DNA from: a virus
Direction: 5' to 3' (one strand)
DNA length: 33,640 nucleotides
IMG/VR virus record: IMGVR_UViG_3300035665_000155
Coordinates: 1-33,640 of that record
In this document: positions 18,430 through 33,272 of the stretch, one piece after another
Numbering within the stretch: position 1 is the stretch's first letter
Layout: each line of letters opens with the position of its first letter
Notes under the pieces: generated by a model
The model's input: only the letters and a program-made list of their open reading frames with translations
Told to the model about the DNA's origin: nothing
Databases searched by the model: none
Program-made: the position numbers and the translations under genes

Positions 18430-18454
18430 TAAAGTGTTGTAGGGTATGGGTTTA
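18430..18454 (+). repeat. single downstream-type regulatory box
   Basis: TAAAGTGTTGTAGG...GGGTTTA matches the second box of the paired modules and is preceded by TTTTGACG as usual. No convincing first box occurs 53 bp upstream. It lies 137 bp before the promoter at 18567. Confidence 0.6.
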
Positions 18455-18464
18455 TGTATAATCG

Positions 18465-18550
18465 GGTGATTGATACTATCTTGTGTTTAAGAGAATAATA
18501 TATTTGGCACGAAATTTGCTCTAAAAATATTTTTATTTGGCACGAAAATA
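18465..18550 (+). repeat. leader repeat with GATTGATAC and two TTTGGCACGAAA elements
   Basis: After the box come GTGATTGATACTATCTTGTG and TTTAAGAGAATA, then TTTGGCACGAAATTTGCT (18503-18520) and a second TTTGGCACGAAAAT (18536-18549). The same order of blocks recurs at 19078-19135 and 21797-21845, so these upstream regions are duplicated copies. Confidence 0.65.
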
Positions 18551-18566
18551 TATTTCAAGATTTGTC

Positions 18567-18594
18567 TTGCAATGGCCGATAAATATGGTATAAT
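18567..18594 (+). promoter_or_regulatory. early promoter, CCGATAA spacer type
   Basis: TTGCAA, 16-bp spacer, TATAAT. The spacer carries GGCCGATAAA. Transcription would start about 20 bp before the 45-aa gene. Confidence 0.85.
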
Positions 18595-18621
18595 AGCAGC
18601 ACACAAGAAAGAAAGGCCAAA

Positions 18622-18759
18622 ATGCTGACTCTCATTCAGGTTGGTAAGAAGTATAAGGTATATAGGATGGATTCGAATAAGAATGATGGGAAAAATAGGA
18701 AGTTGCTTGGTACGTTCAAGAATAGTGAAGAAGCCATCCGATTCATGAATGCCTCTTGA
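18622..18759 (+). CDS. microprotein of a three-member paralogous family (45 aa)
   Basis: ATG 18622 gives MLTLIQVGKKYKVYRMDS, then GKNRKLLGTFKNSEEAIRFM and NAS. The same arrangement (K-x-V/Y start strand, G-x-x-RKLL-x-x-FK-x-S-x-x-A-x-RFMN end) is found in the products at 20175-20327 and 21128-21271, so this is a real coding gene despite its size. All three follow a box-type leader. The pattern suggests two beta strands and a helix. I do not recognise a known family; function unknown. Confidence 0.75.
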   Translation: MLTLIQVGKKYKVYRMDSNKNDGKNRKLLGTFKNSEEAIRFMNAS

Positions 18760-18784
18760 CAAGTAAGGGAATAAGGTATATAGT

Positions 18785-18997
18785 ATGATCACTCTACAGG
18801 AAAAGAAAATGAATAGCCTCGACAAGATTATGGCCGCTATGCGTGCTGGCAAGTATGGCAGTGTGATTGACCCAAAGGGCAACGCTCATGTGGGCATCAT
18901 CAATGCTATCATGCGTGAGGATGGTAGTGGGCGTAACTGGATTGTGAGCATTACTAACAAGACAAAAAATGAACAAGTATTCATACATGCTACCTAA
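18785..18997 (+). CDS. small protein of unknown function (70 aa)
   Basis: MITLQEKKMNSLDKIMAAMR, then AGKYGSVIDPKGNAHVGII and a C-terminal NWIVSITNKTKNEQVFIH. The MITLQE start and the next 20 residues resemble the start of the 80-aa protein at 24869, which supports ATG 18785, although ATG 18809 has the better ribosome binding site (AGGAAAAGAA). It is 25 bp after the 45-aa gene and probably cotranscribed. The stop codon lies inside a CC-TAA-GGGGGG element. No function can be assigned. Confidence 0.65.
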   Translation: MITLQEKKMNSLDKIMAAMRAGKYGSVIDPKGNAHVGIINAIMREDGSGRNWIVSITNKTKNEQVFIHAT

Positions 18998-19003
18998 GGG
19001 GGG
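18993..19003. repeat. G-tract element at a stop codon
   Basis: CC-TAA-GGGGGG with the TAA being the stop of the preceding gene. One of eight C/G-tract elements between 18.99 and 21.67 kb. Confidence 0.5.
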
Positions 19004-19042
19004 TATGTTAAATTTAGAAAAATGGGGCGGCCCGATTTGACG

Positions 19043-19067
19043 TAAAGTATTGCTGTATATAGACTTA
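19043..19067 (+). repeat. single downstream-type regulatory box
   Basis: TAAAGTATTGCTGTATATAG then ACTTA, preceded by GGGCGGCCCGATTTGACG, the linker of the paired modules. The position 53 bp upstream holds the G-tract element and a stop codon rather than a clear first box. Confidence 0.7.
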
Positions 19068-19077
19068 TGGCTAATCA

Positions 19078-19161
19078 TATGATCGACACGATGTTATGTT
19101 TAAGGGAATACTATATTCTTGGTATGACATTTGCTACTGGTATCCTTACGACATTGTAAGG
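19078..19161 (+). repeat. leader repeat with GATCGACACGAT block, TTTGGCAC-like element and CCTTAC hairpin
   Basis: ATGATCGACACGATGTTATG and TTTAAGGGAATA, then CTTGGTATGACATTTGCT (19118-19135), then the inverted repeat CCTTAC-N6-GTAAGG (19144-19161). The first parts recur at 18465 and 21797, and the hairpin recurs at 20088 and 22365. Confidence 0.65.
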
Positions 19162-19172
19162 AAACTTTGTGC

Positions 19173-19200
19173 TTGCAATCTAAAGTGGATTCTGTATAAT
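19173..19200 (+). promoter_or_regulatory. early promoter, TCTAAAG spacer type
   Basis: TTGCAA, 16-bp spacer beginning TCTAAAG, TATAAT, followed by GACGATATAAGAG. This second promoter type recurs at 20117, 23544 and 24597. Confidence 0.8.
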
Positions 19201-19230
19201 GACGATATAAGAGAAAAGGGAGAAAAAGAA

Positions 19231-19395
19231 ATGACATACTTCGCTCAAATCGTAGACGCTTGGGATTGTGAACTGGATTTCATCGGCCCGTTTTATACTG
19301 AGGATCAGGCAACTACTGCCGCTTTCGATAAGTGGGATGGTGAGGATGGGTGTAGGGTAAATATCATCAAAAGGCTTCCGGCTTTTGCTCACTGA
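19231..19395 (+). CDS. small protein of unknown function (54 aa)
   Basis: I start at ATG 19231 behind GGGAGAAAAAGAA and downstream of the promoter at 19173; longer reading frames would begin before the promoter. The protein reads MTYFAQIVDAWDCELDFIGP with a C-terminal CRVNIIKRLPAFAH. It contains FYTEDQATTAAFDKWDG, resembling short phage proteins that describe a strand, a Thr/Asp-initiated helix and a strand. Single-gene unit between two promoters. Function unknown. Confidence 0.65.
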   Translation: MTYFAQIVDAWDCELDFIGPFYTEDQATTAAFDKWDGEDGCRVNIIKRLPAFAH

Positions 19396-19415
19396 AAAAA
19401 TATTTTCTAGTGGGG

Positions 19416-19443
19416 TTGACGTAGGATTGCCGATAAGTATACT
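19416..19443 (+). promoter_or_regulatory. early promoter with CCGATAA near the -10
   Basis: TTGACG, 16-bp spacer, TATACT. CCGATAA is present but about 6 bp closer to the -10 than in the other promoters. It is followed after 17 bp by the 64-aa gene. Confidence 0.75.
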
Positions 19444-19460
19444 AGGGAAAAGGAAAAGAA

Positions 19461-19655
19461 ATGACACTGAATACAGAAATCTCGACAACGTATGATGGTA
19501 AGCGATATACGGGCTTGGTTGTAGAAATCAAGAAGATGAGCAATCGTGAGTTGATCACGATCATGATCGAAGATGATACGCGGAATGATGGCATAGGGTA
19601 TCGTAGCCTTTATGCCGATAAGATGAGCGAAACTTCCGAAAACCTTTTTGCATAA
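19461..19655 (+). CDS. small protein of unknown function (64 aa)
   Basis: ATG 19461 follows GGAAAAGGAAAAGAA. The protein starts MTLNTEISTTYDGKRYTGLV, has a basic EIKKMSNRELITIMIED strand-helix pattern and ends SLYADKMSETSENLFA. Beta-rich with an internal helix. It is the first gene of a short unit with the acidic 78-aa gene 10 bp downstream. No recognisable family. Confidence 0.65.
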   Translation: MTLNTEISTTYDGKRYTGLVVEIKKMSNRELITIMIEDDTRNDGIGYRSLYADKMSETSENLFA

Positions 19656-19665
19656 GGATCATACA

Positions 19666-19902
19666 ATGAGCAATGACTTTGTATACGATATGAGCGAAAT
19701 CAATGAGGAAGATATGTTCAAGGCTTGGGAAGAAATGGTAGCCGAAGATGGTAGCATCTGGGAAACGGGATACGGGGACGATGACGATTATATTCCGGGC
19801 CTCGATGACGGAGAGGGCTATGATTCGATCATGGGTGACGAATACCCCGAAACGGATGATGAATGGCTCGACGATTTCCAAGGCGAGGAGGAGTTTGCCT
19901 AG
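19666..19902 (+). CDS. strongly acidic small protein (78 aa)
   Basis: I start at ATG 19666 (AAGGAT upstream), not the in-frame upstream TTG. The protein is rich in Asp, Glu, Gly and Tyr with almost no Lys or Arg after residue 20: GYGDDDDYIPGLDDGEGYD, then DEYPETDDEWLDDFQGEEEF. Strong net negative charge resembles DNA-mimic inhibitors (such as Ocr or ArdA type), but no specific family match is visible and a structural role is also possible. The stop codon TAG is part of a G-tract element. A second acidic protein lies at 22724. Confidence 0.65.
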   Translation: MSNDFVYDMSEINEEDMFKAWEEMVAEDGSIWETGYGDDDDYIPGLDDGEGYDSIMGDEYPETDDEWLDDFQGEEEFA

Positions 19903-19926
19903 GGGGATACACCCCCCACTAGGGGG
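19902..19926. repeat. double C/G-tract hairpin after the acidic gene
   Basis: GGGGG-ATACA-CCCCC and CCCCC-ACTA-GGGGG can each pair, so two alternative stems share the C run. It begins at the stop codon of the preceding gene. Confidence 0.6.
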
Positions 19927-19938
19927 AAAGGCTTGACG

Positions 19939-20016
19939 TAAACCATTGCTGCATAAGCATTTACAGCAAAGCCGCGGGCTCAGGTTTGACGTAAAGTATT
20001 GCTACATAAGGATTTG
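19939..20016 (+). repeat. paired-box module
   Basis: First box TAAACCATTGCTGCATAAGC then ATTTA (19939-19963), second box 19992-20016, 53 bp apart. The linker is GCGGGCTCAGGTTTGACG-like. The first box can form TTGCTG/CAGCAA in RNA. Promoter at 20117. Confidence 0.8.
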
Positions 20017-20061
20017 CGGCGAATCGCTACAGCAAACGGTGTGCTAAAAGAAAAAATGTTT

Positions 20062-20105
20062 TTTGGCATGATATTTGCTGAAGATAACCTTACGATATTT
20101 TAAGG
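20062..20105 (+). repeat. TTTGGCATGA element and CCTTAC hairpin
   Basis: TTTGGCATGATATTTGCT (20062-20079) and CCTTAC-GATATT-TTAAGG (20088-20105), the same two elements as in the leader at 19118-19161. Confidence 0.6.
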
Positions 20106-20116
20106 AAATATTTTAC

Positions 20117-20145
20117 TTGCAATCTAAAGAATGACCGGGTATAAT
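20117..20145 (+). promoter_or_regulatory. early promoter, TCTAAAG spacer type
   Basis: TTGCAA, 17-bp spacer starting TCTAAAG, TATAAT, then GTCGATATAAGG. Confidence 0.8.
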
Positions 20146-20174
20146 GTCGATATAAGGAATAGAGGAGAAAACAA

Positions 20175-20327
20175 ATGAACACTTCGCTCGAACAGCACGG
20201 TAAGGTTTTCAAGGTATTTCAGATTATTTCCGGTGCGTATGACGGGAAAAATCGTAAGTTACTAGGCAAGTTCAAGACTTCCGAAGATGCTATACGCTTC
20301 ATGAATCGTATCTCTTCGTCTAGGTGA
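20175..20327 (+). CDS. microprotein of the paralogous family (50 aa)
   Basis: ATG 20175 follows GGAGAAAACAA. The protein begins MNTSLEQHGKVFKVFQIISG, then DGKNRKLLGKFKTSEDAIRF and MNRISSSR. It shares GKNRKLLG-x-FK-x-SE-x-AIRFMN with the 45-aa protein at 18622 and more weakly with the 47-aa protein at 21128. Conservation of this core over three copies supports translation. It is followed after 3 bp by the next gene. Function unknown. Confidence 0.75.
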   Translation: MNTSLEQHGKVFKVFQIISGAYDGKNRKLLGKFKTSEDAIRFMNRISSSR

Positions 20328-20330
20328 AAA

Positions 20331-20540
20331 ATGAACAGCAAAACGATTGCAAAAGAGTTGAAAAAGATAGGCTACACGCTCAAGCGTACTTCCGATGTTG
20401 AAGCGCGTTGGATGGTTCGTTCAGATGTGCTTACCTACCATTGGGATTTCAAAGATCTGAAAGGCGTAGAGCGTTTCATGGTTGACGAGCGTGCCATGTA
20501 TAGGTACGCTAAGGCGAACGGTGCTACTCTTCGCAAATAA
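20331..20540 (+). CDS. small basic protein (69 aa), function unknown
   Basis: MNSKTIAKELKKIGYTLKRT is followed by EARWMVRSDVLTYHWDFKDL and RYAKANGATLRK. The N-terminal helix-strand pattern (TIAKELKKIGYTLK) resembles the start of HicA-like or double-stranded RNA-binding mini-domains, but a catalytic His of HicA is not placed correctly, so I do not assign it. It starts 3 bp after the 50-aa gene and belongs to that unit. The C-terminal helix is basic, compatible with nucleic acid binding. Confidence 0.6.
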   Translation: MNSKTIAKELKKIGYTLKRTSDVEARWMVRSDVLTYHWDFKDLKGVERFMVDERAMYRYAKANGATLRK

Positions 20541-20551
20541 TAAGGGGAAAG

Positions 20552-20761
20552 ATGCAAGTTTTCGATCATAGACTTTTGGTTGCTGTTCCTGCGAACAAGT
20601 GGATTGGAGAATGGATTCAACGTGACCCATCCCCTATTTATAGGGGGACGCTGGCGGCACAGTTGCGACTTATACGCAAGAGGCACGGAACCCCCCACGC
20701 GAAGGGGTATCGAGACCATATGGTGTGGATGGGGAGCTATCCCCCCAAGTATAGGGGGTAA
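20552..20761 (+). CDS. small basic protein containing three C/G-hairpin inserts (69 aa)
   Basis: ATG 20552 with AAGGGGAAAG upstream. The protein MQVFDHRLLVAVPANKWIGE is followed by DPSPIYRG, HGTPHAKGY and YPPKYRG; each of these short Pro/Gly stretches is encoded by a C-tract/G-tract hairpin (20631-20647, 20691-20707, 20741-20758). The stop lies at the end of the last hairpin. The inserts look secondary to an original reading frame, so the ancestral protein may have been shorter. No family recognised. Translation is plausible but unproven. Confidence 0.5.
   Translation: MQVFDHRLLVAVPANKWIGEWIQRDPSPIYRGTLAAQLRLIRKRHGTPHAKGYRDHMVWMGSYPPKYRG
20631..20647. repeat. C/G-tract hairpin inside a gene
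   Basis: CCCCTATTTATAGGGGG: stem CCCCTA/TAGGGG with TTTA loop, encoding the PSPIYRG part. Confidence 0.6.
20691..20707. repeat. C/G-tract hairpin inside a gene
   Basis: CCCCCCACGCGAAGGGG: four to five C-G pairs, loop about eight bases. Confidence 0.45.
20741..20758. repeat. C/G-tract hairpin at the end of a gene
   Basis: CCCCCCAAGTATAGGGGG: five C-G pairs, directly followed by the TAA stop. Confidence 0.6.
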
Positions 20762-20768
20762 TTAGACG

Positions 20769-20846
20769 TAAACCCTTGATGGATAATCATTTACGAAAAA
20801 TCCGGGACCACCGATTTGACGTAAAGCATTGTGGCGTAATGACTTA
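20769..20846 (+). repeat. paired-box module
   Basis: First box 20769-20793 (TAAACCCTTGATGG...CATTTA), second box 20822-20846 (TAAAGCATTGTGG...GACTTA), 53 bp apart, linker ending CGATTTGACG. It begins 7 bp after a stop codon. No close promoter follows; the next gene starts 280 bp further on. Confidence 0.8.
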
Positions 20847-20931
20847 TGACTAGTGAATATAGCAAATACTGTGCCGCGGAATAAAAAATTTTAAGCCTAA
20901 AAAAGAGGCATGGTAAGATGGGTAATCCGTT

Positions 20932-21007
20932 GCAAAATGCTACAATGGTAGTGTTTGACGGCCAAAATCACTAACGCAAAATGCTACAGGGTGTTGCAAA
21001 ATGCTAC
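20932..21007 (+). repeat. three direct repeats GCAAAATGCTAC (iteron-like)
   Basis: Identical 12-mers at 20932-20943, 20976-20987 and 20996-21007, spaced 44 and 20 bp, in the widest gene-free gap of the early region. Spacings near whole helical turns suggest a protein-binding array such as a replication origin or operator. Nothing else in the gap from 20762 to 21127 looks coding. Confidence 0.65.
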
Positions 21008-21078
21008 GCTTAAAAAGGGGGATCAAAAAATGTCATAGCGTTTTTCCCGAGCGAAACGCAAAAAAGAATAATCTATGT

Positions 21079-21106
21079 TTGGCACACCGATTGCTCTATA
21101 TATAGG
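21079..21106 (+). promoter_or_regulatory. possible weak promoter from the TTTGGCAC element
   Basis: TTGGCA, 16-bp spacer CACCGATTGCTCTATA, TATAGG. The -35-like part is the TTTGGCACACCGATTGCT repeat (21078-21095). Only partial -10 match. Confidence 0.35.
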
Positions 21107-21127
21107 TATAAGAAAGAGAGAGTGAAA

Positions 21128-21271
21128 ATGGAAACGCTGGTTCTAATCGTCGTAAAGGGTAAGTATAAGGTTTATAGGGAAACCAAGTATCCCAACGGAT
21201 ATTCCCGTAGGCTTCTGGCAACCTTCAAAACTTCTTACAATGCCGAAAGGTTCATGAACTCTCGCCCATAA
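21128..21271 (+). CDS. microprotein of the paralogous family (47 aa)
   Basis: ATG 21128 after GAGAGAGTGAAA. METLVLIVVKGKYKVYRETK is followed by YPNGYSRRLLATFKTSYNAE and RFMNSRP. It shares KYKVYR with the protein at 18622, and RLL-x-TFK-x-S-x-x-A-x-RFMN with both paralogues. The core is somewhat more divergent (YSRRLL instead of KNRKLL). Its stop TAA lies inside a CCC-ATAA-GGGGGG element. Function unknown. Confidence 0.7.
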   Translation: METLVLIVVKGKYKVYRETKYPNGYSRRLLATFKTSYNAERFMNSRP

Positions 21272-21277
21272 GGGGGG
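21265..21277. repeat. C/G-tract element at a stop codon
   Basis: CCC-ATAA-GGGGGG; the TAA is the stop codon of the 47-aa gene. Confidence 0.5.
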
Positions 21278-21341
21278 TATGCAAGGCGAGAAAAGTTTCC
21301 TAGAATCATTCCAGTATCACCAACCAAGAGAGAAAAAGAAA

Positions 21342-21671
21342 ATGGCTACCAAGTTCAAGATTATCGAAGATGCCAAGCGTCAGGTTCGCATGTGCTTTCT
21401 TGGAATCGCAATCCCTCACCAACCATCACTCGCTGATGGGGTATATGGCCCGATCCGTAGCGAGAAGGTTTTGAAGTTCAATCGCAAGGCGTTGCGTAAT
21501 GCTGGTAGTATCAAGGCTGAAAAAGCCGATCCCCGCTATAAGGGGGGTGACGATCTTATGATCGTAAAGGTTGGCAAGCCAGGTTCGGCTGAACGTAAGG
21601 CCGCATTGGCCGCACAGTATGAGGCGATTCTTGCTTGTGGAGAGGAAGTCTCCCCCTTCTCGGAGGGGTGA
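21342..21671 (+). CDS. small protein of unknown function (109 aa)
   Basis: I start at ATG 21342 after GAGAGAAAAAGAAA; the in-frame ATG 21279 has no good ribosome binding site. The protein begins MATKFKIIEDAKRQVRMCFL and ends in a helix (KPGSAERKAALAAQYEAILA) and an acidic tail. It contains DPRYKGGDD and ends SPFSEG, both encoded by C/G-tract hairpins. Charge is basic in the middle (RKALRNAGSIKAEKAD). No known family recognised. Confidence 0.6.
   Translation: MATKFKIIEDAKRQVRMCFLGIAIPHQPSLADGVYGPIRSEKVLKFNRKALRNAGSIKAEKADPRYKGGDDLMIVKVGKPGSAERKAALAAQYEAILACGEEVSPFSEG
21531..21547. repeat. C/G-tract hairpin inside a gene
   Basis: CCCC-GCTATAA-GGGGGG, encoding the DPRYKGG segment of the 109-aa protein. 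Confidence 0.5.
21652..21668. repeat. C/G-tract hairpin at a stop codon
   Basis: CCCCCTTCTCGGAGGGG with the stop TGA directly behind it. Confidence 0.5.
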
Positions 21672-21705
21672 CATCCGTACACTAGTGCTCAAAGATTTGA
21701 TGATA

Positions 21706-21783
21706 CAAAATCTTGACATCTAATCATTTAGAAAAATGCGGGCGGACCCAGTTTGATCTAAAGCGTTATGGCATATATACTTA
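21706..21783 (+). repeat. paired-box module
   Basis: First box 21706-21730 (CAAAATCTTGACAT...CATTTA), second box 21759-21783, 53 bp apart with linker GCGGGCGGACCCAGTTTGATC. Promoter at 21875 drives the HU gene. Confidence 0.75.
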
Positions 21784-21796
21784 CGACTAATATGCT

Positions 21797-21845
21797 GATC
21801 GATACGATCTTCTGTTTAAGAAAATAAAATATTTTGGCACAAGAT
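21797..21845 (+). repeat. leader repeat with GATCGATACGAT block and TTTGGCAC element
   Basis: GATCGATACGATCTTCTGTT, TTAAGAAAATAAAAT and TTTTGGCACAAGATTA, homologous to the leaders at 18465 and 19078. Confidence 0.6.
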
Positions 21846-21874
21846 TATTTTTATTTTTCTCAAAGATTTTCTTA

Positions 21875-21902
21875 TTGACATGACGATAATATGTAGTATA
21901 AT
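21875..21902 (+). promoter_or_regulatory. early promoter of the HU gene
   Basis: TTGACA, 16-bp spacer with ACGATAATATG, TATAAT; ATG follows 27 bp downstream. Confidence 0.85.
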
Positions 21903-21928
21903 CAAGGTATCATAACGGAGAGAAACAG

Positions 21929-22228
21929 ATGAGCAGTACGAAGCGTGAAATGATTGAGCGGATTGCGGAGCGGGTGGGTGTGACGGGCGAGCAGGCTCGT
22001 GAGATCGTGCAAGCCACACTAGACAACATGATCGAAACGCTCTCTACCACTGGTCGCATCGAACTTCGCAACTTCGGTGTGTTCGTAGTCAAGAGGGTCG
22101 CCCCTCGCAACGCTCGCAATCCTCGAACGGGTGAGAGTGTGATGGTGTCCGCTCACAACGTGGTCAGGTTCAAGGCGGGTAAGGTGATGGATGCAGCAAT
22201 CCAGAACGATTCGCTACAACCGGCTTGA
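21929..22228 (+). CDS. HU/IHF-family DNA-bending protein (99 aa)
   Basis: A standard-length HU-type protein. The N-terminal dimer helices are TKREMIERIAERVGVTGEQA and the following LDNMIETLSTTG; the beta-arm region has RIELRNFGVFVVKR and the tip RNARNPRTGESVMV, including the Pro that intercalates into DNA; the C-terminal helix is AGKVMDAAIQN. HU compacts DNA and assists replication, recombination and transcription complexes. GRIELRNFGVF and RNPRTGE look like HU of Planctomycetes, a weak host hint. It has its own promoter behind a box module, and could help fold the repeated box DNA. Confidence 0.95.
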   Translation: MSSTKREMIERIAERVGVTGEQAREIVQATLDNMIETLSTTGRIELRNFGVFVVKRVAPRNARNPRTGESVMVSAHNVVRFKAGKVMDAAIQNDSLQPA

Positions 22229-22245
22229 GTAAGTCAGGGCTTATT

Positions 22246-22296
22246 TTGTATCACCACAACCTACAGGGTTGGCAAGGTGGGCTATAGTCAGCGTAA
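22246..22296 (+). ncRNA. copy 1 of a three-copy structured element
   Basis: TTGTATCACCACAACCTACA, then GGGTTGG and GGTGGGCTATAGTCAGCG. Stem AACC/GGTT followed by a conserved GTGG-x-TATAGTCAGCG tail. Other copies at 26381 and 29361 have different stem bases that still pair. It follows the HU gene by 17 bp. Confidence 0.6.
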
Positions 22297-22335
22297 ATGT
22301 AGGCAAAACGTAAAATGGAGGGGCCCGATTTTTCA

Positions 22336-22382
22336 TAAAAGATTGTGCGATAAGTACTTGCGAACCTTACAGTATTGTAAGG
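22336..22382 (+). repeat. second-type box and CCTTAC hairpin
   Basis: Box TAAAAGATTGTGCGATAAGT then ACTTG (22336-22360), followed by CCTTAC-AGTATT-GTAAGG (22365-22382). A first box 53 bp upstream is at most very degenerate. Confidence 0.6.
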
Positions 22383-22403
22383 AAAAATATTCACGATTAC
22401 CCC

Positions 22404-22431
22404 TTGCATTGGCCGATAATGTATGTATAAT
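22404..22431 (+). promoter_or_regulatory. early promoter, CCGATAA spacer type
   Basis: TTGCAT, 16-bp spacer with GGCCGATAAT, TATAAT. Confidence 0.85.
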
Positions 22432-22470
22432 CGTGGCATGATGATCGCGACCACCAACGGAGAGCATAAG

Positions 22471-22721: not shown

Positions 22722-22723
22722 TT

Positions 22724-23376: not shown

Positions 23377-23436
23377 AGTACTCGTCTCCGGTATGGAAAT
23401 GTAGACTATGGTTTATACACCAATATTATAAGAATC

Positions 23437-23514
23437 TAACTACTTGTTGCATAAGACTTTACGACGAATCGGGCCGCACGATCTTGACGTAAACTCTTTA
23501 GGCTCAACGACTTA
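23437..23514 (+). repeat. paired-box module
   Basis: First box 23437-23461 (TAACTACTTG...AAGACTTTA), second box 23490-23514 (TAAACTCTTTAGG...CGACTTA), 53 bp apart, linker CGGGCCGCACGATCTTGACG. Promoter at 23544. Confidence 0.85.
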
Positions 23515-23543: not shown

Positions 23544-23572
23544 TTGACTTCTAAAGTTTCTTCCTGTATAAT
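23544..23572 (+). promoter_or_regulatory. early promoter, TCTAAAG spacer type
   Basis: TTGACT, 17-bp spacer starting TCTAAAGTTT, TATAAT, then GTCGATACAAAGG. Confidence 0.85.
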
Positions 23573-24339: not shown

Positions 24340-24341
24340 GT

Positions 24342-24498: not shown

Positions 24499-24576
24499 TA
24501 AAGCCTTGATGCGTAAGAGTTTACGCCAAGGCCCAGCGGACGCATTTGACGCAAACTATTGAGACACAACAACTTA
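24499..24576 (+). repeat. paired-box module
   Basis: First box 24499-24523 (TAAAGCCTTGATGCGTAAGA then GTTTA), second box 24552-24576, 53 bp apart. In RNA the first box pairs GCCTT/AAGGC and CGTAA/TTACG. It starts 3 bp after a stop codon. Promoter at 24597. Confidence 0.85.
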
Positions 24577-24596: not shown

Positions 24597-24625
24597 TTGA
24601 CTTCTAAAGTTTAGGCTGGTAGAAT
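24597..24625 (+). promoter_or_regulatory. early promoter, TCTAAAG spacer type
   Basis: TTGACT, 17-bp spacer starting TCTAAAGTTT, TAGAAT, then ACCGATATAAAGAG. Confidence 0.8.
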
Positions 24626-25394: not shown

Positions 25395-25472
25395 TAAAGC
25401 CTTGCTGCGTAAAAGTTTACGCCAAGGCTGGTCGGCCGGTTTTTCTGCAAAGTCTTGTGTTTCAACAACTTA
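25395..25472 (+). repeat. paired-box module
   Basis: First box 25395-25419 (TAAAGCCTTGCTGCGTAAAA then GTTTA), second box 25448-25472, 53 bp apart. RNA stem AGCCTT/AAGGCT plus CGTAAA/TTTACG. Begins 3 bp after a stop. Promoter at 25504. Confidence 0.85.
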
Positions 25473-25503: not shown

Positions 25504-25532
25504 TTGACAATGCCGATAATATACTGTAGAAT
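25504..25532 (+). promoter_or_regulatory. early promoter, CCGATAA spacer type
   Basis: TTGACA, 17-bp spacer with GCCGATAATATACTG, TAGAAT. Confidence 0.85.
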
Positions 25533-25998: not shown

Positions 25999-26076
25999 TA
26001 AGGTCTTTAGCCACAAGACTTTAGTGCGAGCCGGTGCGGCCGATGTTGATGCAAACTCTTATTGATCAAAGACTTG
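25999..26076 (+). repeat. paired-box module
   Basis: First box 25999-26023 (TAAGGTCTTTAGCCACAAGA then CTTTA), the closest copy to a perfect dyad, flanked by GCTC/GAGC; second box 26052-26076, 53 bp apart. Promoter at 26096. Confidence 0.85.
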
Positions 26077-26304: not shown

Positions 26305-26376
26305 GGCCCCATCTTCTAACGGTTAGGAAATCGGATTTTCGCTCCGAGAATCAGGGTTCGATTCCCTGTGGGGTCA
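26305..26376 (+). tRNA. tRNA-Glu (anticodon UUC)
   Basis: Acceptor GGCCCCA with TGGGGTC at the 3' side (one G-U), anticodon stem TCGGA/TCCGA with loop TTTTCGC giving UUC, T arm with GGTTCGATTCC. CCA is not encoded. Likely cotranscribed with the 51-aa gene from the promoter at 26096. Confidence 0.95.
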
Positions 26377-26473: not shown

Positions 26474-26950
26474 ATGCTTACCACTACGCAAAAGCAATTG
26501 CTGTCTATTGTGAATCTTAAGGGGTACGGGGGCAAGGAGAATGTATTGTCTCGTATTCTTTCTAGGGATAATGGTTGGGAGCGGACTAGCCATACGTTGT
26601 ATGATTATAAAAATGATATGTTGGATTGTCTTGTGGAGTGTAAGAAGCAGGCCGATTTACAGTGGCTTGATCCTAGTAAGTATTATGGATTGAGCGAGAG
26701 GGAGAAGCAAATTCGGTTTCTGTTCATTGTGATCAATAAGCAGGGATATGTTGACGTTGCCTTTACCGTTAAGGCTGAGGATTTGATTGGGCGATTGTGG
26801 TCAAATGAACATGTGAAAGATGCTTGGGAGTATATCCAGAAGTATCCCAAGGATCAGATTAAGTCTTGTATTAAAACACGAGCATTCTATAGGGATAATC
26901 AGGATATTATTCATACTGTATATGAGCGAATGCAAACTGTTGCGGCGTAA
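26474..26950 (+). CDS. protein of unknown function (158 aa), nearly leaderless
   Basis: MLTTTQKQLLSIVNLKGYGG is followed by RILSRDNGWERTSHTLYDYK, EREKQIRFLFIVINKQGYVD and VKAEDLIGRLWSNEHVKDAW. Predominantly helical and charged, with a central strand. The -10 ends only 9 bp before the ATG and no ribosome binding site is seen, so translation may be leaderless or begin at a later Met. The last codons form the first box of a regulatory module. No known domain recognised. Confidence 0.7.
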   Translation: MLTTTQKQLLSIVNLKGYGGKENVLSRILSRDNGWERTSHTLYDYKNDMLDCLVECKKQADLQWLDPSKYYGLSEREKQIRFLFIVINKQGYVDVAFTVKAEDLIGRLWSNEHVKDAWEYIQKYPKDQIKSCIKTRAFYRDNQDIIHTVYERMQTVAA

Positions 26951-27010
26951 GACTTTACAACAAAGCTGCCCGCCCGGTTTTGACGTAAACTCTTATCATC
27001 TATAGACTTG
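26933..27010 (+). repeat. paired-box module overlapping a gene end
   Basis: First box 26933-26957 (CAAACTGTTGCGGCGTAAGA then CTTTA) covers the last codons and stop of the 158-aa gene; second box 26986-27010, 53 bp apart. Promoter at 27042. Confidence 0.85.
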
Positions 27011-27041: not shown

Positions 27042-27070
27042 TTGACAGACCGATAATAGGAGTGTAGAAT
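27042..27070 (+). promoter_or_regulatory. early promoter, CCGATAA spacer type
   Basis: TTGACA, 17-bp spacer with ACCGATAATAGGAGTG, TAGAAT. Confidence 0.85.
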
Positions 27071-27711: not shown

Positions 27712-27787
27712 GTGGGTATAACTCAAAGGTAGAGTTCCACTTGTTTAAATACAAGAGGAGTTGATGGTTCGAATCCATCTATCCACT
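27712..27787 (+). tRNA. tRNA-like RNA with an enlarged anticodon arm
   Basis: Acceptor GTGGGTA/TATCCAC (7 perfect pairs), D arm ACTC-AAAGGTA-GAGT and T arm GATGG-TTCGAAT-CCATC are canonical. The anticodon arm is not: CCACTTGT/ACAAGAGG forms an 8-bp stem with an A-A mismatch and a 6-base loop TTAAAT, where 5 bp and 7 bases are expected. Isotype cannot be assigned with certainty; UAA (Leu) is in the loop region. CCA is not encoded. It may be a degenerate, specialised or inserted-into tRNA. Confidence 0.55.
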
Positions 27788-27836: not shown

Positions 27837-27914
27837 TAAATGCTTACGCTGTAAGAGTTTAGGGCAAACTGCCGCGGCCGGATTCGTCGCAAAGTCTTAC
27901 CCACCAACAACTTA
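27837..27914 (+). repeat. paired-box module
   Basis: First box 27837-27861 (TAAATGCTTACGCTGTAAGA then GTTTA; stem CTAAA/TTTAG and CTTAC/GTAAG), second box 27890-27914, 53 bp apart. Follows the tRNA-like gene. Promoter at 27936. Confidence 0.85.
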
Positions 27915-27935: not shown

Positions 27936-27964
27936 TTGACAAGCCGATAATACTAGTGTAGAAT
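27936..27964 (+). promoter_or_regulatory. early promoter, CCGATAA spacer type
   Basis: TTGACA, 17-bp spacer with AGCCGATAATACTAGTG, TAGAAT. Confidence 0.85.
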
Positions 27965-29052: not shown

Positions 29053-29161
29053 TAATGTTTGCTATTGTGGTAACTGTAATGAAATGTGCTATATGCTAGA
29101 TAAGCATGAGGTTTTTTGGAGTTTCTGTGGTGATTGCTATTGGTGGTATCTAAAGTATTGA
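29039..29161 (+). CDS. zinc-ribbon microprotein (40 aa)
   Basis: ATG 29039. MKTLDNVCYCGNCNEMCYML then DKHEVFWSFCGDCYWWYLKY. CGNC and CGDC knuckles 17 residues apart are the core of a zinc ribbon. The stop codon lies inside the first box of the next module, so coding and regulatory sequence overlap. Last gene of the six-gene unit. Function unknown. Confidence 0.6.
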   Translation: MKTLDNVCYCGNCNEMCYMLDKHEVFWSFCGDCYWWYLKY

Positions 29162-29228
29162 AGCGTAAGACTTTAGAGCAACCCGGGGCGGCCGGATTTG
29201 ACGTAAACTCTTATCTATCAACCACTTA
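29151..29228 (+). repeat. paired-box module overlapping a gene end
   Basis: First box 29151-29175 (TAAAGTATTGAAGCGTAAGA then CTTTA; flanking CTAAAG/CTTTAG dyad), second box 29204-29228, 53 bp apart, linker CGGGGCGGCCGGATTTGACG. Promoter at 29248. Confidence 0.9.
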
Positions 29229-29247
29229 GGATTTTTAAAGAAAACCC

Positions 29248-29276
29248 TTGACACTGACCGATAATAGAAGTATACT
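29248..29276 (+). promoter_or_regulatory. early promoter, CCGATAA spacer type
   Basis: TTGACA, 17-bp spacer with GACCGATAATAGAAG, TATACT. The stretch from 29283 to 29360 that follows holds no gene I can support. Confidence 0.85.
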
Positions 29277-29360
29277 TAGGGAAACAAGTGGGTGGGCCGT
29301 TGGCAGAATGATATCAAAGAAGCCACGGTTAAATGGCGGTCGAGTATGGCTCAACCCAAC

Positions 29361-29413
29361 GCTTGTCTTTCCTAATCCTACGGATTTGGCTGGGGTGGCT
29401 GTAGTCAGCGAAA
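29361..29413 (+). ncRNA. copy 3 of the three-copy structured element
   Basis: GCTTGTCTTTCCT, stem AATCC-TAC-GGATT, then TGGCTGGGGTGGCTGTAGTC-AGCGAAA. It ends 11 bp before the promoter at 29425, as copy 2 ends just before a promoter. Confidence 0.65.
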
Positions 29414-29424
29414 GTTTAAAGGTC

Positions 29425-29453
29425 TTGACAAGACTTGGTTAATAGTATATAAT
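29425..29453 (+). promoter_or_regulatory. early promoter after the structured element
   Basis: TTGACA, 17-bp spacer without CCGATAA, TATAAT. Confidence 0.8.
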
Positions 29454-29471
29454 CGTTTGAGGAGATCAATC

Positions 29472-29729
29472 ATGGATTGGGATAGAAATGATTATTTAAA
29501 GGGGGGAAAGCATTGTATTCCCGTTGATTGTAGAATATGCGGTAATCATCAAGATATTTGGGTTGAGGATAATGATATTGAAGTATGGATTAATGGTAAA
29601 GAGTCCGAAGAGGCTTTTACATATCTTAATCCAAGCCAGCACAGAATGTTGGATAGTATGATTTGTCAACAATGTTTTGACATTTTATTAGGGAATATTC
29701 CATATGAAATCACGACCAATGCACGGTGA
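29472..29729 (+). CDS. small phage protein with paired Cys knuckles (85 aa)
   Basis: ATG 29472 after GAGGAGATCAATC. MDWDRNDYLKGGKHCIPVDC-RICGNHQDIW, then a hydrophilic part, YLNPSQHRMLDSMICQQCFD and an Ile/Thr-rich end. Cys-x2-Cys pairs at about 20-23 and 71-74 could form a zinc ribbon. The LNPSQ-x-x-ML segment echoes LNAEQREILL of the 86-aa protein at 27986, so the two may be distant paralogues. It overlaps the next gene by 26 bp. Confidence 0.7.
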   Translation: MDWDRNDYLKGGKHCIPVDCRICGNHQDIWVEDNDIEVWINGKESEEAFTYLNPSQHRMLDSMICQQCFDILLGNIPYEITTNAR

Positions 29730-30186
29730 AGTTCGTTTTCATCTTTCCAGTGGCGAACATTTTATGCACTGGCAGATTAAAGTTAAGCAAGGTAGTAAGA
29801 CTGTTGATGTATATTATTACGATCCCAAAGAATACCAGTTGGAAATGAGGGGTTGTAAACTTCGCAATCGACCAAATAAAGCCAAACAAGTATTTGAGGC
29901 TGGTGTGCATGATGTGAGCGGATGGGTAAAGTGTGAGGAAGTTATGCTTCGCAAGGATTTTTATCCTACGTTGCCTATTGACAATCTTGAGCGTGTGTTT
30001 TATAATCCACTTCGTGATCCATACTGGCGTCGTGAGAGCGATAGCAATGAGTTCATATGGGATGAAAGCGAATACGCTACACTCATTACTAGTGGTAAAC
30101 AAGTTTATATTTTAGAAGAACGACACTGCTCGTTCGACGATCTTAGAGAAATAGATTCCAAGTATTTAGGAGATTTTAAGGTATGA
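29704..30186 (+). CDS. conserved phage protein (160 aa), function unknown
   Basis: MKSRPMHGEVRFHLSSGEHF then MHWQIKVKQGSKTVDVYYYD and EMRGCKLRNRPNKAKQVFEA-GVHDVSGWVKC. The front half (MHGEVRFHL-x-x-GEHF-x-HWQIK, then YYDP and C-x-LRN) looks like a widely distributed phage family without known function. The back half (YPTLPIDNLERVFYNPLRDP) is more variable. Alternative Met at position 6. Overlaps the next gene by 4 bp. Confidence 0.7.
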   Translation: MKSRPMHGEVRFHLSSGEHFMHWQIKVKQGSKTVDVYYYDPKEYQLEMRGCKLRNRPNKAKQVFEAGVHDVSGWVKCEEVMLRKDFYPTLPIDNLERVFYNPLRDPYWRRESDSNEFIWDESEYATLITSGKQVYILEERHCSFDDLREIDSKYLGDFKV

Positions 30187-30566
30187 TTAATCTGCAACTG
30201 ACTGTTCGTGAGGCTATGTATTTGGCTAGCAACTGGGCATACAACAACGATGCTGAACTGTATCACAAGATCGTGAACTCTGTGGAGATTGCGTTGGGCG
30301 TGAGCCAGAATCGCACCGTTACCATCACTGGTGGCATGACTCTGGATAATCGTATCTACTGCATCAAGGCTATCCGAACTCACACCGGATGGGGCTTGAA
30401 GGAAGCCAAGGATTGGAGTGATGCTCTGGTTGGTGGCTGGAAGTACGACACGTTCGTTCCTGCAACTCCAGGCACGAAGAACAGCGTAACTCTCAAGACT
30501 CCCGAAGCGGCTGAAAATCTGCTGCGTGACCTTGTGGACAAGGGTTGTGAGGGTTTTCTCTCCTGA
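30183..30566 (+). CDS. protein with a bL12-like C-terminal domain (127 aa)
   Basis: The C-terminal half (about 57-125) follows the ribosomal protein bL12 C-terminal domain: RIYCIKAIRTHTGWGLKEAK-DW, a gap, then TPEAAENLLRDLVDKGCEGF. In bL12 the GLKEAKD helix is the surface that binds elongation factors. The N-terminal part (MINLQLTVREAMYLASNWAY) differs from bL12 and has no hinge. The domain also occurs in some non-ribosomal proteins, so translation control is a hypothesis. Last gene of its unit, 3 bp before a box module. Confidence 0.65.
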   Translation: MINLQLTVREAMYLASNWAYNNDAELYHKIVNSVEIALGVSQNRTVTITGGMTLDNRIYCIKAIRTHTGWGLKEAKDWSDALVGGWKYDTFVPATPGTKNSVTLKTPEAAENLLRDLVDKGCEGFLS

Positions 30567-30569
30567 GCC

Positions 30570-30647
30570 TAAAGCCTTGCCGCATAAGACTTTGCGGCGA
30601 GGACGGCCGCGGCGATTCGACGTAAACTCTTATCCCATAACGACTTA
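30570..30647 (+). repeat. paired-box module
   Basis: First box 30570-30594 (TAAAGCCTTGCCGCATAAGA then CTTTG), RNA stem CCTTGCCGCA/TGCGGCGAGG; second box 30623-30647, 53 bp apart. Begins 3 bp after a stop. Promoter at 30681. Confidence 0.9.
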
Positions 30648-30680
30648 GGAACAATCGTGAAAAATACTAATGAGAAGGGG

Positions 30681-30708
30681 TTGACAGTGCCGATAACTAT
30701 GCTATACT
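30681..30708 (+). promoter_or_regulatory. early promoter, CCGATAA spacer type
   Basis: TTGACA, 16-bp spacer with GTGCCGATAACTATGC, TATACT. About 120 bp of leader with hairpin TGGTTG/CAACCA (30732-30747) follow before the gene. Confidence 0.85.
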
Positions 30709-30766
30709 GATAGCATCACAAGACAAGACGCTGGTTGATCGCAACCAAAAAAGTTCGACCTAGCCC

Positions 30767-30795
30767 TTGACAAGTGATGATACGGTTGGTATGAT
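30767..30795 (+). promoter_or_regulatory. second early promoter without spacer motif
   Basis: TTGACA, 17-bp spacer, TATGAT. Confidence 0.7.
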
Positions 30796-30836
30796 TACTT
30801 TACTTGGTTCGATTACACTTTTTGGAGATGATTACA

Positions 30837-31088
30837 ATGAAGAAGTTTGCTTTTACTGTTGATGTTGTTGCCGATGAACTGGATCGTGATTCGGTCGTGG
30901 CGAGCCTGACTGATGCACTGAATGAGAATCTTCCCGGCGACGTTCATGCGAACGTAAAGGCCGGTGAGATCAAGAGTTTTTCTGAGCAGGGTTATAAGGT
31001 GTGGCGTGCCCGTGTTACGGGTGTGACTGCCGAGGCTGCGGGCGACTCCGCGAATCCTAAGAAGGTCAAGGAAACGGTCGAGGCTTGA
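30837..31088 (+). CDS. small protein of unknown function (83 aa)
   Basis: I start at ATG 30837 after TTTTGGAGATGATTACA. MKKFAFTVDVVADELDRDSV, NENLPGDVHANVKAGEIKSF and KVWRARVTGVTAEAAGDSAN: a beta-alpha-beta-beta layout with a Lys/Glu tail. Higher GC than its neighbours and two promoters, so it may be well expressed. No family recognised with certainty. Confidence 0.7.
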   Translation: MKKFAFTVDVVADELDRDSVVASLTDALNENLPGDVHANVKAGEIKSFSEQGYKVWRARVTGVTAEAAGDSANPKKVKETVEA

Positions 31089-31116
31089 TCGACTGATTCT
31101 ATCATCAAACCGCTTC

Positions 31117-31142
31117 AGCCTCCACGGGAAACCGTGGGGGCT
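31117..31142 (+). terminator. strong hairpin after the 83-aa gene, no U tract
   Basis: AGCCTCCACGG/CCGTGGGGGCT, 11 bp with one T-G pair and a GAAA tetraloop. It is followed by TTGCGGC, not by T residues, so it may protect the mRNA end or act in RNA processing rather than terminate alone. Confidence 0.5.
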
Positions 31143-31169
31143 TGCGGCATTGAGTGGATACAGTATAAT
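31142..31169 (+). promoter_or_regulatory. candidate promoter of the tRNA pair
   Basis: TTGCGG, 16-bp spacer, TATAAT, 8 bp before tRNA-Arg. Confidence 0.6.
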
Positions 31170-31177
31170 AGGCATAT

Positions 31178-31249
31178 GGCCCCATAGTTAAATGGATATA
31201 ACAAGTGCCTTCTAAGCACTGGTTAGAGGTTCGATTCCTCTTGGGGCTA
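31178..31249 (+). tRNA. tRNA-Arg (anticodon UCU)
   Basis: Acceptor GGCCCCA with TGGGGCT (one G-U), anticodon stem AGTGC/GCACT with loop CTTCTAA giving UCU for AGA codons, T arm AGAGG-TTCGATT-CCTCT. CCA is not encoded. Confidence 0.95.
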
Positions 31250-31252
31250 TTT

Positions 31253-31326
31253 GGGAATGTAGATCAATCGGTTAGATCGCTAGCCTGTCACGCTAGAGGT
31301 TGCGGGTTCGAGTCCCGTCATTCTCG
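31253..31326 (+). tRNA. tRNA-Asp (anticodon GUC)
   Basis: Acceptor GGGAATG/CATTCTC, anticodon stem CTAGC/GCTAG with loop CTGTCAC giving GUC, T arm GCGGG-TTCGAGT-CCCGT. Three bp after tRNA-Arg; the first box of the next module starts 2 bp after its end. Confidence 0.95.
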
Positions 31327-31327
31327 C

Positions 31328-31405
31328 TAAGTCCTTATTCTGTAAGACTTTACGACGAAAGTGCGGGCGGCGGATTGACGTAAACTCTTATCCCACAAGC
31401 ACTTA
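31328..31405 (+). repeat. paired-box module
   Basis: First box 31328-31352 (TAAGTCCTTATTCTGTAAGA then CTTTA), second box 31381-31405, 53 bp apart, linker GTGCGGGCGGCGGATTGACG. It follows tRNA-Asp directly. Promoter at 31447. Confidence 0.9.
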
Positions 31406-31446
31406 CGAGTTGTTTCGTTTTCTGCAACAACTGATAAAGTTTTCCC

Positions 31447-31475
31447 TTGACAATGCCGATACTCTAGTATAGAAT
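31447..31475 (+). promoter_or_regulatory. early promoter, CCGATAA-like spacer type
   Basis: TTGACA, 17-bp spacer with TGCCGATACTCTAGT, TAGAAT. Confidence 0.85.
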
Positions 31476-31493
31476 CGTTAGCATAGGAGAAAC

Positions 31494-32201
31494 ATGATGA
31501 AAGTTGCAAACGGTAACGATAAGTTGGGTAAGGGTTGTTTGGTCGTGAGTCGGCCCGTTGGTGATACTTGTCCCCCTACTTGTGTTTATTTGGGCGACGG
31601 TTGCTATGCTGAGCAAACCGAGAAAATGTATCCTAATGTTCGCCCCGCTGGTATGATGAATCTTATCACCGAGAAGAATCGTATTAGAGCGATGATTCTG
31701 GAAGCGATTCGTAAAGAGAAGTCTATTCGTTGGCATGAGCGTGGTGATTGGTTCAAGGATGGTCAACTCGACCTTGACTATGTTGCTAATGTAACGTGGG
31801 CTTGTGAGAGTATTATGGCCGATGGTACTAGTCTGCCCGATATGTGGTTTTATACTCATATCTATGATAGTCGGCTTGTGGCTATGGAAAAGTATATGAA
31901 TGTATATGCCAGTGTTCATAATGATAATGATATGAATGAGGCAAAGGCTCAAGGCTTCAAACTGTTCGCATGGTGCGATAGTGACGAAAAGATTGCCAAG
32001 AAACGTCCCAAGCGTAAGGCGGCAGCGGAAGTGTGGCGTAAGAGTCTGCCTAAACTGGTTGTGCTGAATGATACAAAGTTTATCACTTGCCCCGAAATCC
32101 GTCGTGGTCGTGGCGTTGTCACTTGCACACCGACGAAGGGCAGTGTAGACTGTAACTTGTGCGTCAAGGGTTTGGCTAACGTGTTGTTTCCATCACACTG
32201 A
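31494..32201 (+). CDS. Gp88-like protein (235 aa)
   Basis: MMKVANGNDKLGKGCLVVSR-PVGDTCPPTC, then YLGDGCYAEQTEKMYPNVRP, RWHERGDWFKDGQLD, WFYTHIYDSRLV, VYASVHNDND, FAWCDSDEK and CPEIRRGRGVVTC...CNLCVKGLANVLFP. The cysteine positions (C15, C26, C30, C37 and the C-terminal CPE/CNLC group) and these blocks match the mycobacteriophage gene product 88 family, whose function is not known. Conserved Cys suggests a metal or iron-sulfur site. First gene of a four-gene unit with its own box module. Confidence 0.75.
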   Translation: MMKVANGNDKLGKGCLVVSRPVGDTCPPTCVYLGDGCYAEQTEKMYPNVRPAGMMNLITEKNRIRAMILEAIRKEKSIRWHERGDWFKDGQLDLDYVANVTWACESIMADGTSLPDMWFYTHIYDSRLVAMEKYMNVYASVHNDNDMNEAKAQGFKLFAWCDSDEKIAKKRPKRKAAAEVWRKSLPKLVVLNDTKFITCPEIRRGRGVVTCTPTKGSVDCNLCVKGLANVLFPSH

Positions 32202-32208
32202 GGATAAA

Positions 32209-32472
32209 ATGATTGCTCATACTTATACTTATGTTCTTCTTGAAGATGTTTGCGAACACAATAAACTACCCTACGATACTGTTATGATGGCTATTAGGGA
32301 GAGTGATATTAGTTTTGGAACAAACTATGACACTTTCGTTAGTAGCACTCAACTAGATAGGATTTTAGCAGATTCTATGGTCGCGTGGCCCGTGGGTTTT
32401 CGTCTCCAGCCTTTAGATTTTGATAAGCATGATGAAGATAATGGTTACGTTCTTATTTCTTTAGGGAGTTGA
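32209..32472 (+). CDS. small protein of unknown function (87 aa)
   Basis: ATG 32209 after TGAGGATAAA. MIAHTYTYVLLEDVCEHNKL then PYDTVMMAIRESDISFGTNY and LDRILADSMVAWPVGFRLQP. The first part resembles a short helix-turn-helix-like layout, but I cannot claim DNA binding. The end is acidic (DFDKHDEDNGYVLISLGS). Seven bp behind the Gp88-like gene; the next ATG follows 2 bp after its stop. Confidence 0.6.
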   Translation: MIAHTYTYVLLEDVCEHNKLPYDTVMMAIRESDISFGTNYDTFVSSTQLDRILADSMVAWPVGFRLQPLDFDKHDEDNGYVLISLGS

Positions 32473-32474
32473 GT

Positions 32475-32945
32475 ATGGGTAAGATTAGTGCAAAGTATCT
32501 CAAGGCCGATGGTAGTCGTACTAGTTTCTTTGTTGTAAATCGTCGCAAAGGTTTCAAAACATTCCTGTCAAAGGAACACGCTGAACTGGCACGGTGCTAT
32601 CAAATGATTCTGTATGCTGCCGGATATGCCCCTAAAGTTCATAGTGAAGTTGGTCGTATTACAATCGGAATCCATCCTAAGACTAACAAGCCTATGCTTA
32701 GTCAATGGGGATATGTGGTACAGAAAGTAAGAACTCTGGGTTGTAGTAGCAGTGCTGGTGGTTGTGATTGTGAGCGGTGCGAATGTGCCAGATATGACTA
32801 TGAGGAGCAGATTGAATATCTGTGTGAACATGCCGAGGGCGATACTGGTATTCGTATTGGTGATCGTCATATTGGCAACTTTGGTTTTATAGATGATCGT
32901 ATGGTAGTGTTAGATACTGGTATTGAAACTTTTCAGGAGTATTGA
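32475..32945 (+). CDS. protein with kinase-like catalytic-loop motif (156 aa)
   Basis: I use ATG 32475 (GGGAGTTGAGT upstream). Three parts: a basic N-terminus (MGKISAKYLKADGSRTSFFV), a Cys-rich middle (C90, then CDCERCEC at 97-104) and a C-terminus with GIRIGDRHIGNFGFIDDR and MVVLDTG. H132-x-G-N135 followed by a D147-x-G149 motif is the order of catalytic loop and metal-binding motif in phosphotransferase and protein-kinase-like folds. No glycine-rich N-lobe or VAIK lysine is visible, so it is a fragment or a pseudo-enzyme. The Cys cluster could bind zinc. Confidence 0.6.
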   Translation: MGKISAKYLKADGSRTSFFVVNRRKGFKTFLSKEHAELARCYQMILYAAGYAPKVHSEVGRITIGIHPKTNKPMLSQWGYVVQKVRTLGCSSSAGGCDCERCECARYDYEEQIEYLCEHAEGDTGIRIGDRHIGNFGFIDDRMVVLDTGIETFQEY

Positions 32946-32947
32946 AA

Positions 32948-33187
32948 ATGGGTAAGTATTATGTAAAGAGCGGCACACTAGAAGTTATTCTGTCTCAACC
33001 TAATGCTCTAGAAGCGGCTATTTGTGGTTTGTTGCTAACAAATAAGTTCGATACTATCGACGAGCACTTTTATGTAGATGAACAAGGGTATAGGGATTAT
33101 ATTAGTGCTACTCCTAAAACTAATGTAATCGCTACAAAAAGTATAGTTAGGGCCGCAGGGTGGGAACTTTCACGGGATGATGATTGA
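32948..33187 (+). CDS. conserved small phage protein (79 aa)
   Basis: ATG 32948 is used, not the upstream TTG. MGKYYVKSGTLEVILSQPNA then LEAAICGLLLTNKFDTIDEH and FYVDEQGYRDYI. KYYVKSG-x-LEVIL followed by an A-A-x-x-A/L helix and an acidic FYVDE-x-GYR segment occurs in many phages as a hypothetical protein. Alpha-beta fold likely; role unknown. Last gene of the unit, 7 bp before a box module. Confidence 0.7.
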   Translation: MGKYYVKSGTLEVILSQPNALEAAICGLLLTNKFDTIDEHFYVDEQGYRDYISATPKTNVIATKSIVRAAGWELSRDDD

Positions 33188-33194
33188 ATAGCCA

Positions 33195-33272
33195 TAAGTC
33201 CTTGGTGCATAAGACTTTGCATCAAGGCGGGCCGCGGCGATTTGCCATAAAGTGTTGAGGGATAAGGGTTTA
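33195..33272 (+). repeat. paired-box module
   Basis: First box 33195-33219 (TAAGTCCTTGGTGCATAAGA then CTTTG; RNA stem CCTTGGTGCA/TGCATCAAGG with one G-U), second box 33248-33272, 53 bp apart, linker CGGGCCGCGGCGATTTGCCA. Confidence 0.9.

Follow-up and report, generated by a model that had tools for sequence, protein, structure and literature searches.

The early genes of a large, uncultivated freshwater phage, represented by the 33.6-kb IMG/VR fragment IMGVR_UViG_3300035665_000155 (33,640 nucleotides; here, the window), are preceded by copies of a 78-bp paired-box module that together look like a genome-wide switchboard, with a module before nearly every early gene. We propose that the modules are probably upstream control sites (operators or upstream activating sequences) of early sigma70-type promoters, bound by a protein that would contact RNA polymerase and jointly set the early transcription units, most likely in the manner of a class I activator.

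Thirteen modules and three single boxes are present (Table 1), at the positions reported by an earlier, sequence-only reading of the window, and the second box of all 13 starts exactly 53 bp after the first. When boxes were scored across the whole window with a symmetric 25-bp matrix, 29 exceeded 11.7 bits and the next best reached 8.5 bits, while shuffles give an expectation of ∼0.3 boxes of >12 bits. An independent pattern scan that allowed mismatches found 35 matches against 0.9 expected. All 29 boxes fall in the early arm (18.4 to 33.3 kb); the structural genes, which take up 17 kb on the opposite strand, have none. Modules adjoin the end of the upstream gene: the stop codon lies 5 to 6 nt earlier or is the module's own TAA, or the neighbor is the end of a tRNA. 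Inspection of the window shows one box within coding sequence, overlapping the end of an open reading frame (ORF); module 26933 overlaps the final 18 bp of the upstream ORF 26474-26950, whose stop codon is the inner TAA of the module.

The sequence-only reading had described shared positions and a dyad in both boxes. The boxes are real, but their relative orientation was overlooked: box 2 is the reverse-complement type of box 1 rather than its direct repeat, and the linker ends are also mirrored (CGnCAA...TTGACG). With inverted boxes and symmetric linker ends, the module forms a single interrupted dyad of 78 bp that has four half-sites and a GC-rich center. The consensus of 337 unique copies is TAARnCCTTGnnGCaTAAGACTTTACGnCrAr - GC-rich core - rTTTGACGTAAACTCTTATnnnnYAAsGACTTA, and GC content is 66% in the linker, 77% in the linker core, and 35% in the boxes. 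The single boxes (18430, 19043, and 22336) retain a half-linker, consisting of a GC-rich run followed by a TTTGACG-like sequence.

Related loci were collected through relatives of TerL, of which there are >590 in IMG/VR, and through a relaxed search of viral contigs for the 78-bp pattern, which matched 69 stretches. The five-turn spacing, whose retention in relatives the sequence-only reading had proposed to check, is kept. With spacing allowed to vary from 35 to 89 bp, exactly 53 bp was found for 468 of 502 box pairs, and one shuffled control gave 1 pair; among neighboring boxes in related contigs, 412 were at 53 bp, 9 at 52 bp, and 2 at 54 bp. One locus (L122, positions 903 to 6916) has all seven of its pairs at 52 bp, a lineage-coherent deviation. 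Module-bearing records of 85 to 230 kb carry their strong boxes in one early cluster of 9 to 21 kb with 12 to 19 modules, and genomes of 150 to 230 kb have their modules in that cluster only. The intervening units can be gained, lost, or relocated in a gene order that is otherwise conserved. One related locus (L067, from the 71,393-bp record G015) has modules at the same positions as the window and is apparently nearly the same phage. No GenBank phage relative exceeds ∼31% TerL identity, and SPbeta-like phages are present among the distant TerL relatives. The early arm had no megablast match among GenBank phages, and blastn gave only weak partial matches, to one module region. A scan of bacterial genomes returned a single match (L150), which was judged to be chance because its boxes score just 8 to 9 bits.

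The sequence-only reading placed most modules after one unit has ended and ahead of the next promoter. This placement is supported, and it has a feature unseen in that reading, namely, phasing to the promoter. Downstream of the modules are sigma70-type promoters, taken as consensus matches (TTGACA-16/17-TATAAT or TAGAAT); their spacer often contains CCGATA, or GTCGATA follows the −10 element. Measured from the end of the module, the −35 element is most often 20, 30 to 31, or 41 bp away. Among 64 nonredundant modules, the Rayleigh R value is 0.66 at a period of 10.6 bp (nominal P, ∼1e-12); with one module per orthologous unit, R is 0.52 (n = 56; nominal P, ∼3e-7), and the phasing is also present inside most single genomes. 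At orthologous promoters, the distance to the module varies among phages by whole turns, and differences within families peak at 10 to 11, 20 to 21, 31, and 42 to 44 bp. For example, the module lies 20, 30 to 31, or 41 bp from the promoter of the gene for a GP88-like protein and 9, 20, or 30 bp from that of the f6 gene. Helical phasing with whole-turn shifts is read here as pointing to a module-bound protein in contact with RNA polymerase.

A second family of paired sites takes the place of the modules in some relatives. Thirteen loci of TerL relatives have no 53-bp module (system A) and instead show pairs of TGCCA-N3-TGGCA sites (system B), spaced by exactly 29 bp and separated by a GC-rich linker of 16 nt, e.g., positions 1 to 6400 of L099 (record G018, 36.5 to 49.3 kb) and 21.9 to 41.9 kb of record G002. 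The same early genes, in the same order, have either A or B upstream, depending on the phage. About five switches between A and B are needed on the TerL tree, compared to 12.5 in shuffles, and B phages keep a few single A-type boxes at the edge of the cluster. The center of the proximal box is ∼32 bp from the −35 element in A and ∼31 bp in B. One further TerL relative (L107, record G007) has neither A nor B modules and carries other repeats (ATTTAGGCCCGGGCCT, TAGCTGACTACGAAC, and others), which may be a third system. Evolution has run a natural, replicated experiment in the rewiring of an entire early regulon: orthologous genes in conserved order are found with at least two unrelated putative paired operators at a similar promoter distance, and orthologous distances shift by whole turns. 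The experiment spans a large, abundant, uncultivated group of freshwater phages and gives handles toward the regulator.

Among A phages, genome specificity lies in the inner half-sites, which form classes that are coherent by genome (A1, YAAGASTTTR; A2, YAAGGSTTTA; and A3, YAAGSACTTA), with a within-genome identity of 0.835 compared to 0.666 after shuffling of modules between genomes (z = 25). Outer half-sites show no difference between genomes (0.622 versus 0.621; z = 0.5). The simplest reading would be a trans-acting specificity that differs among phages; the inner half-sites may also be recognized in another way than the outer ones. A more elaborate version, possible but doubtful, is a composite operator for two different proteins: a conserved and perhaps host-encoded factor would occupy the outer half-sites, and the inner ones would be bound by a rapidly evolving specificity factor of the phage; boxes spaced by 53 bp would be held on one DNA face and drive all early promoters, and the array of 12 to 19 sites would have been replaced repeatedly (A1, A2, A3, and B).

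For the control sites proposed here, we predict the following. (i) One DNA-binding protein would bind both boxes, probably with one dimer per 25-bp box; the sequence-only reading had also proposed joint binding by one kind of regulator, which is supported as an inference. (ii) The boxes, five helical turns apart, would present the protein on the same DNA face across the GC-rich center. (iii) The bound protein would touch RNA polymerase at a promoter 20, 30 to 31, or 41 bp downstream. (iv) The 12 to 19 early transcription units would be set together, most likely by a class I-type activator and less likely by a repressor that contacts RNA polymerase.

Several observations weigh against this proposal. 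Helical phase implies contact at the promoter and cannot separate activation from repression. For a minority of modules, no promoter that matches the consensus lies at a phased distance, and the P values are nominal because the phages belong to one clade and are not independent samples. In B, the 29-bp spacing does not amount to complete helical turns, so the binding of both boxes on one face is no general rule. Further, no gene tracks A versus B: a search for A-only and B-only genes gave just functionally uncharacterized early genes or spurious ORFs. There was no match to the HTH_3 repressor family (PF01381) in 12 large records or to the recombinase families PF00589 and PF00239 in 12 to 15 records, all possibly fragments, and the sigma54 activator family PF00158 was found in 0 of 20 records.

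The binders suggested by the sequence-only reading fared poorly. HU was rejected as a partner, its gene being present in 2 of 15 related records. The helix-turn-helix protein encoded at 17167 is a poor candidate for the specificity factor: it is conserved in phages with modules, in phages with TGCCA-type sites, and in one phage with neither, and its recognition region is nearly constant. A sigma70 region-2-like protein, encoded at 16270-16953 next to TerL and conserved in the phage group, was rejected on the same grounds, as it is found across A, B, and neither. The binder may be host encoded or a phage protein that is not recognized.

The same sites could be operators of repression or immunity, with a phage repressor acting on all modules to silence early genes, either late in infection or during a resident carrier state, and with A1, A2, A3, and B as heteroimmune groups. 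The many sites, genome-specific inner half-sites, and wholesale replacement of A by B resemble the immunity groups of cluster A and K mycobacteriophages (PMC6550527, PMC3203893) and the SPBRE sites and MrpR repressor of phage SPbeta (PMC10516654). The sites, however, lie upstream of the −35 element and do not cover the promoter; integrase, resolvase, and HTH_3 repressor are all missing from the 12 to 15 records searched, and the lack of a gene that follows A versus B applies here too. An MrpR-like protein may have escaped the family searches. On balance, we consider this explanation unlikely.

A bound module might also act as a stoperator or road-block that halts transcription from upstream, serving as the terminator of one unit and the insulator of the next. 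Its position against the upstream stop codon or tRNA end would suit such a function, as would the finding that none of the listed intrinsic terminator-like sites (GC-rich hairpin plus T run) falls inside a module. Phasing to the downstream promoter and its whole-turn changes are left unexplained, which makes the road-block improbable as the main function; it may be an added role of the module.

Exchange of early units at the modules, by site-specific or homologous recombination, would make them cassette boundaries. The gain, loss, and movement of the units between them fit this idea, and four half-sites with a 53-bp center spacing are reminiscent of Tn3 res and attC. Conversely, the recombinase searches were negative for both the tyrosine and serine families in the 12 to 15 records covered, possibly fragments, the arms lack attC-type complementarity, and promoter phasing is again unexplained; we regard cassette boundaries as highly improbable.

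We give almost no credence to an RNA element (one that would act in the upstream gene's transcript as an attenuator or processing site), even though the consensus forms an inverted repeat and the folds of real modules are 5.3 kcal/mol more stable than those of dinucleotide-shuffled sequences: chimeras of two different copies fold equally well and RNAalifold predicts no pairs (the two results on which a hairpin or attenuator was rejected), class A1 retains a mismatch between inner half-sites (GAC opposite GAG type), no Rfam family other than tRNAs was matched, and arm complementarity in the window is lower within copies (14.4/25) than between copies (15.5/25). Arm-to-arm covariation at positions 20 to 22 and 57 to 59 is a between-genome effect, because the inner half-sites are genome specific. 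Visual inspection suggested a local hairpin in box 1 of certain copies (e.g., 24499 and 33195); its covariation was not significant.

The coordinates of modules, single boxes, and promoters are listed in Table 1; ORFs in the early cluster are mechanical calls.

Table 1. Boxes, modules, and predicted early promoters in the window
Feature	Position	Strand	Basis
Single proximal box, GC-rich/TTTGACG half-linker in front	18430..18454	+	Matrix, 20.4 bits
Single proximal box, GGGGCGGCCCGATTTGACG in front	19043..19067	+	Matrix
78-bp module, two inverted 25-bp boxes and 28-bp linker	19939..20016	+	Matrix
78-bp module	20769..20846	+	Matrix
78-bp module (weak), upstream of HU-like gene	21706..21783	+	Matrix
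Single proximal box	22336..22360	+	Matrix
78-bp module	23437..23514	+	Matrix
Sigma70-type promoter, −35 element 29 bp past end of module 23437	23544..23572	+	Consensus match
78-bp module	24499..24576	+	Matrix
Sigma70-type promoter, 20 bp past module 24499	24597..24625	+	Consensus match
78-bp module	25395..25472	+	Matrix
Sigma70-type promoter, 31 bp past module 25395	25504..25532	+	Consensus match
78-bp module	25999..26076	+	Matrix
78-bp module, carries stop codon of ORF 26474-26950	26933..27010	+	Matrix
Sigma70-type promoter, 31 bp past module 26933	27042..27070	+	Consensus match
78-bp module	27837..27914	+	Matrix
Sigma70-type promoter, 21 bp past module 27837	27936..27964	+	Consensus match
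78-bp module	29151..29228	+	Matrix
Sigma70-type promoter, 19 bp past module 29151	29248..29276	+	Consensus match
78-bp module	30570..30647	+	Matrix
Sigma70-type promoter, 33 bp past module 30570	30681..30708	+	Consensus match
78-bp module, starts just past tRNA gene 31253-31326	31328..31405	+	Matrix
Sigma70-type promoter, 41 bp past module 31328, before GP88-like gene 31494-32201	31447..31475	+	Consensus match
78-bp module	33195..33272	+	Matrix

Two further elements accompany the modules and promoters. At 27050 and 27944 in the window and in most early promoters of related loci, CCGATA occurs in the spacer between −35 and −10 or GTCGATATAAG directly follows the −10 element; this element is possibly the site of a second regulator. 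A sigma54-like sequence, TTGGCAYR-N4-TTGCT, is found near modules in A and B phages (18504, 19119, 20063, and 21079 on the + strand of the window; loci L074, L099, and L110). Related loci hold 107 nonredundant copies, mostly directed at the module and 9 or 14 bp away, and 154 of 155 copies in TerL loci fall in the early arm. The modules were rejected as sigma54 enhancers: the motif is clear but mostly aimed at the module, and no phage bacterial enhancer-binding protein (PF00158) was found in the 20 records; a host activator is possible. Four tRNA genes lie in the early cluster of the window (26305-26376, 27712-27787, 31178-31249, and 31253-31326), the last of which ends one base before module 31328. 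Other products encoded in the window include an HU/IHF-like protein (21929-22228), S-adenosylmethionine decarboxylase (17375-17788), and a protein with a weak match to the C terminus of ribosomal protein L7/L12 (30183-30566).

Class I activator sites of the CRP type occupy a fixed helix face at approximately −60 to −90 and are active at whole-turn distances. The array described here differs in being a paired, 53-bp module that is used phage-wide and for which the binder was not found. The literature searched held no fixed-spacing, promoter-phased, swappable two-box array. The closest system in anatomy and in subcluster-specific positions is the extended start-associated sequence (ESAS) of cluster K mycobacteriophages, which consists of 17-bp repeats with a variable 4- to 13-bp spacer, is tied to a 13-bp start-associated sequence (SAS) at start codons, and is of unproven function (PMC3203893, PMC12699233). 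Both are inverted repeat pairs found before many genes, are retained where those genes are orthologous, and are subcluster specific at a few positions, and some ESAS subclusters also have internal symmetry. The modules nevertheless fail the comparison on spacer and SAS: they have 25-bp boxes with a fixed 28-bp GC-rich linker (468 of 502 pairs) and are phased to the promoter, not the start codon, and the window has no match to the SAS (GGGATAGGAGCCC) with ≤2 mismatches.

Stoperators of L5 and other cluster A phages, to which the sequence-only reading compared the modules, are asymmetric 13-bp sites for a monomeric repressor (PMC6550527, PMC9283540). The comparison holds for the many genome-specific sites for one regulator, covarying across a phage group, but not for symmetry, pairing, or promoter phasing, as the sites here are inverted paired dyads upstream of promoters. 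HTH_3 and integrase were not found in 12 large records, possibly fragments. In the temperate phage SPbeta, which has a serine integrase, SPBRE is a 15-bp motif at about ten intergenic sites, where the promoters serve genes that mostly lack a known function, and is not described as a fixed-spacing pair in the text consulted; its repressor, MrpR, has an inactive tyrosine recombinase fold with <25% identity to recombinases, and the PF00589 search finds nothing here (PMC10516654). By analogy, SPBRE and MrpR appear to be a functional counterpart of the modules and their putative binder and offer a lead for the fold of that protein.

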